Source of the DNA: Pseudodesulfovibrio sp. JC047
GTDB taxonomy: Bacteria; Desulfobacterota; Desulfovibrionia; Desulfovibrionales; Desulfovibrionaceae
Length of the DNA stretch: 64,000 bases
Reading direction: 5' to 3'
Assembly: GCF_010468615.1 (NCBI RefSeq)
Contig: NZ_WUEH01000001.1
Coordinates: 1-64,000 of the forward strand
The position numbers were made by a program, and so were the translations under genes. Every line of letters starts with the position of its first letter. The first letter of the stretch is position 1. Under the pieces are notes generated by a model. The model was not told where the DNA came from. It ran no database searches and worked only from the letters and a program-made list of their open reading frames with translations. Positions 55,378 through 56,646 of this stretch are shown here, in pieces.

Positions 55378-55417
55378 AACCGCCCTGTCCAGCTTCCGTT
55401 GGACAGGGCGGTTTTTT
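55378..55417 (+). terminator. Terminator after pnp
   Basis: AACCGCCCTGTCCA and TGGACAGGGCGGTT form a 14-bp stem with an eight-base loop, followed by T residues. It closes the rimP-pnp operon. Confidence 0.95.
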
Positions 55418-55525
55418 CATGGCCTCCCCTCCCAACATTCCATACATCCTTTTCAGCCCTCTCCCCTCCAAGCATAGACAGAGTCAATAGCTGGGTGTAA
55501 TTAGAGACGAAAAGGAGATGCTCTC

Positions 55526-55738
55526 ATGACAGAGACGATTATTTACGGAAAATCCACCTGACCGCACACCAAGCGGGCGTTGGATGCGCACCCGAACGCA
55601 AAATTTGTGGATGTTGTGATGAACCCGGCCGATCTGGAAAAGATGCTCAAACTGACAGATGGCCTTCGCAAGGTCCCGGTCATTGTCCACGACGGCACCA
55701 CGACGATCGGCTTCAATCGAGGCTCATGACACGTCTAA
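55526..55738 (+). CDS. Glutaredoxin-like UXX-star-type selenoprotein with two in-frame TGA codons
   Basis: Reading through TGA codons at 55559 (codon 12) and 55727 (codon 68) gives a 70-residue protein ending at TAA 55736-55738. It begins MTETIIYGKST-U-PHTKRAL, continues DLEKMLKLTDGLRKVPVIV and ends IGFNRGS-U-HV. The strand-helix plan, the redox position of the first U, the cis-Pro segment KVPVIV and the C-terminal U are those of the small glutaredoxin-like UXX-star selenoproteins, some of which carry a second Cys/Sec near the end. AAAGGAG lies eight bases before the ATG. Coding character continues unbroken after codon 12, so a decayed gene is unlikely. The start and the first TGA are firm; the second Sec is a strong suggestion. 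Confidence 0.8.
55563..55588 (+). promoter_or_regulatory. Candidate bacterial SECIS hairpin after the first TGA
   Basis: One base after the TGA, CGCA pairs with TGCG and CCAA with TTGG (small internal loop), leaving an apical loop GCGGGCG with a G-rich centre. Bacterial SelB needs such a stem directly downstream of the UGA inside the coding region. Folding and SelB binding were not tested. Confidence 0.5.
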
Positions 55739-55766
55739 GCTGTCGGCAGGATGTCGATACACCACA

Positions 55767-55798
55767 AAAAATCCCGAAGCCTTTGCTCCGGGATTTTT
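55767..55798. terminator. Bidirectional terminator
   Basis: AAAAATCCCG and CGGGATTTTT form a 10-bp stem separated by 12 bases. It lies between the selenoprotein gene and the convergent MEMO-family gene and has T-tracts on both strands. Confidence 0.85.
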
Positions 55799-55836
55799 CA
55801 ATTCATTTTTCACGAAAAGAAACAGAGCGACAACGA

Positions 55837-56646
55837 TCAGCTTACCAACACCCCGGCATACCCCACAACCTGATCGAAATCCCCGGACACTTCGCCGGAG
55901 GTGGCATAAGACACCACCTCGACATGAGTCGCCCCCATTTCGGCCACGGCAAACATCCCGGTTGTCATCGGCAAAACACCGCACATGGAAATATCATTTC
56001 CCCGAACCGTTTCAAACAAAGCGGCGGGGTCAGACACATCAAGCGCGTTCAAGGCCAACGCATCCTGTGCCTTGGCTACATCGTGGGCAATGTAATGACT
56101 CATGTCCGAACTGACGACAATGGAAACGGACCGATCAAAGGACGCAAGGACCTGCCCTATGGCCTGTCCTGTCCGCCTGAGCACGTCGAGAGACGACGAA
56201 GCAATGGTAATCGGCACAATGGTCGTCCTCGGGTTCAAACGATGGAGAAACGGCAATATGACCTCAATGGAATGTTCCTGCTGGTGCGCACGCCTATCAG
56301 CCCGCAATAGCGGCACAGCCATCAGTAAGGCCTCTGCCAATTCCACATCAACGGACAACGACGCTCCGGGAATATGCCAATTCCCATCACCCCACAGCGA
56401 AAAAGAGTCTCCGAGTCCGGTATGGTTGGGTCCGAGAAGCAGGATAGTCGGTGCCAGATTAGCCATTCCCAAGGTGGTCCCACAGACAGCCCCGGAATAG
56501 ACGTATCCGGCATGTGGCACCATGGCGAGCCGTGTCGGGGCTTCACGTTTCTCCCCTGCCATATTGAGAAAACCATCAACCACAGAACAAAGCAATTCCG
56601 GGTCGGCATCATAAAACCGTCCGGCAACGACAGGATGTCTCTCCAT
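55837..56646 (-). CDS. amrB: MEMO-family AmmeMemoRadiSam protein B
   Basis: A 269-residue MEMO1-like protein: VVAGRFYDADPELLCSVV, MVPHAGYVYSGAVCG, LLGPNHTGLG, EHSIEVILPFL, and SSDMSHYIAHDVA, with the conserved His residues that bind metal in MEMO proteins. In bacteria it goes together with an AMMECR1 protein and a radical SAM enzyme, absent here. Function unresolved. The gene is convergent with the selenoprotein gene, with a shared terminator. Confidence 0.9.
   Translation of the reverse strand: MERHPVVAGRFYDADPELLCSVVDGFLNMAGEKREAPTRLAMVPHAGYVYSGAVCGTTLGMANLAPTILLLGPNHTGLGDSFSLWGDGNWHIPGASLSVDVELAEALLMAVPLLRADRRAHQQEHSIEVILPFLHRLNPRTTIVPITIASSSLDVLRRTGQAIGQVLASFDRSVSIVVSSDMSHYIAHDVAKAQDALALNALDVSDPAALFETVRGNDISMCGVLPMTTGMFAVAEMGATHVEVVSYATSGEVSGDFDQVVGYAGVLVS

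Follow-up and report, generated by a model that had tools for sequence, protein, structure and literature searches.

A 70-codon glutaredoxin-like gene of Pseudodesulfovibrio sp. JC047, a probable double selenoprotein of UXX-star family 1

We analyzed a window of 64,000 nucleotides (the whole stretch of DNA under study) from Pseudodesulfovibrio sp. JC047 and found that a short gene interrupted by two in-frame TGA codons very probably encodes a double selenoprotein, with both UGA codons decoded as selenocysteine (Sec). This reading draws on membership in a defined protein family, the presence of Sec machinery in the genome, exchange of Sec and Cys at codon 12 among relatives, conservation of both TGA codons, and a covarying hairpin downstream of the second; our confidence covers the double-selenoprotein reading and not the biochemical role. 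By all of the comparative evidence, the gene appears to be a genuine and ordinary member of a known double-selenoprotein family.

Gene layout and family membership

The open reading frame runs from an ATG at 55526 to a TAA at 55738, giving 70 codons with TGA at codons 12 and 68, as an earlier note on this sequence had claimed. Translation of the frame reads MTETIIYGKST-U-PHT...GFNRGS-U-HV-stop. Gene finders that take every TGA as a stop would cut or miss this gene. The features of the region are as follows.

55378..55413, + strand: terminator-like site 3' of the upstream pnp gene (terminator scan)
55512..55517, + strand: ribosome-binding site AAGGAG, 8 nt 5' of the ATG (sequence)
55526..55738, + strand: predicted gene of UXX-star selenoprotein family 1, with 70 codons and a TAA (frame, HMM, genome scan, dN/dS)
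55559..55561, + strand: TGA at codon 12, predicted Sec of the UxxT motif in the glutaredoxin active site (frame; 10 of the 25 same-family loci above the cut-off have Cys)
55575..55589, + strand: hairpin GGGCG-UUGGA-UGCGC, the predicted SECIS element for the first TGA (in the family register, 4 of 5 pairs; weak alone)
55727..55729, + strand: TGA at codon 68, predicted to be the Sec in the C-terminal U-x-x-stop (TGA in all NF041114 loci read)
55736..55738, + strand: TAA stop (frame)
55741..55759, + strand: predicted SECIS hairpin of the second TGA, 3' of the stop codon, UGUCGGC-AGGAU-GUCGAUA (folding, covariation, RNAalifold)
55767..55798, + strand: hairpin with a T run behind it, probably a transcription terminator (folding)

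The gene appears to form a stand-alone transcription unit, since a terminator-like site follows pnp, a hairpin with a T run lies 3' of the gene, and the next gene is on the opposite strand. That terminator hairpin was missing from the output of a simple terminator scan; in a fold of 55727-55810, it and the second-TGA hairpin together gave a z score of -3.17. A promoter scan returned a single weak site, located within the selenoprotein gene, which we left unused. We found no conserved operon within the 1.5-kb flanks of 25 homologous loci from the same family (flanks were shorter at some contig ends). The largest cluster of neighbors, present at 8 of the 25 loci, was discarded because most of it appears to come from the antisense strand's frame within the selenoprotein gene itself. 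In the window, a Memo-family gene identified by Pfam (55837-56646, - strand) is convergent with the selenoprotein gene, and blastp placed a convergent Memo-like gene near it at 7 of the 25 loci, with the Pfam identity applying to the window's copy only.

With C written for U, the product matched the equivalog HMM NF041114 (UXX-star selenoprotein family 1) at 95.9 bits (E = 1.2e-27; cut-off, 72), and a scan of the genome scored it at 81.1 bits, again above the cut-off. The comparison with UXX-star families that the earlier note had proposed thus ends in a match. Several traits expected of this family are found here: a C-terminal TGA followed by two codons and a stop (TGA-CAC-GTC-TAA), an active site of the form UxxT with Sec or Cys (UPHT), and a host that carries all four of selA, selB, selC, and selD. 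The glutaredoxin-like character proposed earlier was borne out by Pfam, in which PF00462 (Glutaredoxin) scored 28.7 bits against a gathering cut-off of 22.9 (E = 1.6e-6). Other models fell below their thresholds: NF041212 (Uxx_star) scored 55.4 bits (41.6 in the genome scan) against a curated cut-off of 66, TIGR02196 (GlrX_YruB) scored 24.3 bits against 88.55, and TIGR02194 was also below its cut-off. Together with NF041212, the models NF041211 (family 2), NF047338 (family 3), and NF045501 (HUGP/GUXX-star fusion) are related, with E values from 5e-15 to 1e-5, and the product lies below the curated cut-off of each.

The protein resembles UXX-star family 1 in its length, its YGKxxUPxT motif, its C-terminal G-S/T-U-x-x-stop, and its two Sec residues, and we found no departure from the family. 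Its UHV tail recurs in three others of the 25 same-family loci, while UGV occurs in 31 of the 55 loci that we read. With classical glutaredoxins, NrdH, and YruB (PF00462, TIGR02194, TIGR02196), it shares the fold and the active-site position. The active-site motif of classical glutaredoxins is CxxC; the window's protein differs in having UxxT, an additional C-terminal Sec, and a predicted structure without a helix after the last strand.

The family has been described in the literature. "Distant Grx-like protein 1" appears with UxxT in a 2022 review (PMC9312934), and a 2026 review (PMC13188914) has an entry for "Distant Grx-like protein 1 (UXX-star selenoprotein family 1)" under NF041114, giving UxxT and two Sec residues. 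From that listing, the double-selenoprotein reading of the gene looks correct yet already catalogued. The same review credits the family to a 2008 study (PMC2398784), whose accessible sections do not name it, and cites Haft and Tolstoy 2025 for further UXX-star families.

Conservation of the two TGA codons

Selection on the encoded protein was evident from a homologue in the same genus (G104, identical at 52 of 66 residues), against which dN was 0.157 and dS 0.846, for a dN/dS of about 0.19. The segment after codon 12 gave nearly the same picture (dN, 0.179; dS, 0.888; dN/dS, about 0.20). By this comparison, constraint acts at the protein level on the frame beyond the first TGA, which agrees with the coding character that the earlier note had seen there. 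It is also one of several observations that weigh against a decaying pseudogene of a Cys glutaredoxin in which the TGA codons arose by chance. Two in-frame stop codons are what such decay might leave, and a match was lacking in three of the seven genomes searched in the genus (the seven include this one). Against this, the NF041114 cut-off was exceeded, the frames of 25 same-family loci read through with no frameshift decay, and both TGA codons are common to genomes from other families of the phylum. We give the pseudogene almost no credence.

Conservation was assessed at two scales, with counts that are uncorrected for shared descent. First, among 119 genomes sampled from the same family, 25 had an NF041114 match above the cut-off (4 of 7 genomes searched in the genus, its own included), and all 25 loci were read. 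Codon 12 was TGA in 15 of these and Cys in 10 (15 U/U and 10 C/U forms), and every one of the 25 had TGA as its C-terminal codon; in 24, the stop came after two further codons. The remaining locus (L031; G060:C6:185970-186161) has no stop after U-x-x, and its frame continues across the hairpin predicted to be the SECIS element for that C-terminal Sec codon. Second, 100 of 395 genomes sampled from the phylum exceeded the cut-off, and we read 30 loci, which are the 31 best matches minus one that had no locus; being the best scoring, they lean toward typical members. Both TGA codons were present in 26 of these 30, Cys stood at codon 12 in four, and the C-terminal TGA was found in all 30 (29 by pattern, plus L115, where it lies three codons before the stop).

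Across the combined 55 loci, the C-terminal codon was TGA in 55, both TGA codons occurred in 41, and codon 12 was Cys in 14. The expectation of Cys homologues at both positions therefore held for codon 12 and failed for codon 68, where Cys was found in none of the 55 loci; likewise, of the "Cys or Sec" expected at the C-terminal TGA of relatives, only the TGA was seen. Nor are two Sec residues in so short a protein unusual, as had been supposed: both TGA codons are the majority state in NF041114 loci (15 of 25 same-family, 26 of 30 phylum-wide), in keeping with the two Sec residues in the review's listing.

These counts bear on the reading in which codon 12 alone encodes Sec and translation terminates at the TGA of codon 68, leaving a protein of 67 residues. 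In its favor, TGA ordinarily serves as a stop, and the end would come just three codons sooner. If it were a plain stop, however, one would expect drift to TAA or TAG, whereas the TGA is invariant in the loci read and the stop that follows it, two codons on in 53 of the 55 loci (the exceptions being those in G060 and L115), is variously TAA, TAG, or TGA. The covarying hairpin at SECIS distance 3' of codon 68, described below, also argues against a single Sec, which we regard as quite improbable.

Two further searches extended beyond these loci. Among 30 loci returned by the broader NF041212 model, of which 13 are the same genes as in the phylum-wide NF041114 search, 18 end in U-x-x-stop when read by eye; in the stretch inspected by eye, the other 12 had neither Sec nor Cys at the C-terminal position. 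A scan of named relatives gave two loci: L054 from Salidesulfovibrio brasiliensis, a true relative of the C/U type that is not counted among the 55, and L055, a Cys type without the Sec tail.

The host genome (3.57-Mb assembly; 147 contigs) contains the machinery for Sec incorporation, for which the earlier note had proposed a check. Scores were above the cut-offs for tRNA-Sec (76.2 bits), SelB (398.9), SelA (601.2), and SelD (338.6), and Pfam agreed on the identities of SelA and SelB. At an E value of 0.001, the tRNA-Sec model also matched all 14 control genomes; at 1e-12, only 2 of the 14 matched, and the window's genome passed (9.3e-16). A tRNA-Sec was found in 24 of the 25 NF041114 carriers, the exception being a genome that is 67% complete (G022), although this co-occurrence adds little because 105 of the 119 same-family genomes have one. 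The host selD (L050; G000:C23:26653-27582) has an in-frame TGA of its own, in AG-U-AAKI, and is likely a selenoprotein gene itself; for that reason, Sec decoding is expected to be in use in this organism.

Programmed readthrough might instead insert another residue, such as Trp, at the TGA codons, and the inserted residue cannot be told from sequence alone. Yet Cys replaces the TGA of codon 12 in 10 of 25 relatives, the genome encodes the Sec machinery, and hairpins lie at SECIS distance. Readthrough with a residue other than Sec is thus improbable in the extreme.

Predicted SECIS hairpins

Folding the RNA after the second TGA, another of the checks proposed at the outset, gave a hairpin at 55741..55759 that, as the comparison of 25 same-family genomes supports, covaries. 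In these genomes, the loop of the best hairpin begins 19 to 27 nt downstream of the TGA, and the hairpin lies 3' of the stop codon in 24 of the 25, those that stop at once. When the sequences were aligned on the loop, 162 of 175 cells were paired with 49 two-sided changes, compared with means of 111 and 14 after the arms were re-dealt among genomes. Because this register was picked for maximal pairing, base-shuffled regions and an alignment made without structure are the better controls. With the same search applied to base-shuffled regions, the fraction of shuffles scoring as high as the real hairpin was below 0.05 in 22 of the 25 genomes (0.01 for the window), and the other three gave 0.06, 0.11, and 0.29. 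In a MAFFT alignment made without structure, 86.1% of cells were paired, compared with 71.1% when shuffled and at most 47.0% when slid; the covariation score was 0.393, compared with 0.169 for shuffled alignments (0 of 500 reached it) and at most 0.154 for slid ones. The number of pairs with two-sided change in this alignment was not significant (5 versus a mean of 3.5; 53 of 500 shuffles). RNAalifold, unaided, recovered 5 of the 7 pairs. These hairpin counts, too, are uncorrected for shared descent. In G104, no hairpin that obeys the generic bacterial SECIS rules was found after the second TGA. Those rules call for an apical loop of 3 to 14 nt, 16 to 37 nt from the UGA, with G in the first two loop positions.

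The compact hairpin that the earlier note had placed after the first TGA did not stand out by itself: its folding energy was unremarkable (z = -0.93; 32 of 200 shuffles fold as well), and it gains some weight only from comparing Sec and Cys homologues. Under the generic rules, hairpin energy did not separate Sec from Cys forms at the first position (means of -8.7 and -9.1 kcal/mol), and we therefore compared them in a fixed register. A five-pair hairpin averaged 4.8 pairs across the 15 Sec forms and 3.5 across the 10 Cys forms; the register was picked after the sequences had been seen, and the Mann-Whitney P of 2.8e-5 ignores phylogeny and is not to be read as a probability. The window's hairpin is among the poorer of the Sec forms, with 4 of 5 pairs and a mismatch at the second pair from the base. 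In a same-genus pair, a Cys form (L010; G002:C9:248714) and a form with Sec at codon 12 (L020; G045:C1:2503569) share a hairpin core. The former keeps GGCC-AGGUC-GGCC with 4 of 5 pairs, and the latter has 5 of 5, which suggests a recent change from Sec to Cys at codon 12.

Predicted structure and possible roles

In the mechanism that we propose, the host SelB and tRNA-Sec would decode both UGA codons as Sec, with a separate hairpin for each that lies about 14 to 33 nt 3' of its codon; the hairpin for the second falls after the stop codon. The organism would then make the 70-residue protein with a glutaredoxin fold. The gene would be a clean example of those that gene finders cut or miss: Sec codons make up two of its 70, and in nearly all of the same-family genomes read (24 of 25), the hairpin predicted as SECIS element for the second lies 3' of the stop.

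An AlphaFold2 model built from 26 aligned sequences, with Cys for Sec, had a pLDDT of 88.0 and the order strand-helix-strand-helix-strand-strand, with no final helix. Its best Foldseek matches were glutaredoxins, and the three PDB entries with E values of 0.001 or less (3ic4, 4tr1, and 4tr0) are all of this kind. Sec12 directly precedes helix 1 (residues 13 to 21) in the model, and the attacking Cys of classical glutaredoxins likewise stands just before helix 1. Classical glutaredoxins end with their last helix, where the Sec68 tail stands here.

The protein may be a small redox or metal(loid)-handling protein with a glutaredoxin fold. The 2026 review leaves the role of UXX-star family 1 open and suggests that the Sec of UXX-star proteins may bind a metal as a ligand or encounter substrates of other kinds (PMC13188914). 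One plausible arrangement, short of probable, is that Sec12 acts as the attacking selenol and Sec68 as its partner, either by completing a diselenide redox pair or by providing a soft metal or metalloid with a second ligand. No conserved neighboring gene points to one or the other. On a speculative and rather unlikely reading, the C-terminal Sec and not the active-site Sec would be the essential residue, and the glutaredoxin fold would be the scaffold of a selenol-specific carrier or trap. This is suggested by the 55 loci read, in which Cys never takes the place of Sec68 but takes that of Sec12 in 14. The cargo may then be a soft metal, a metalloid, an organometal, or a selenium species; the last helix would have been swapped for the Sec tail, and position 12 would supply a partner that can be either a thiol or a selenol. 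The one point that seemed to merit more attention is that the two Sec residues differ in how readily they are exchanged: an invariant C-terminal Sec beside an exchangeable active-site Sec, across 55 loci, amounts to a testable claim about which selenol does the work.

Elsewhere in the host genome lies a second glutaredoxin-like gene (L040; G000:C13:89250-89456), which has Cys, is without the Sec tail, and matches NF041212 weakly (26.7 bits).
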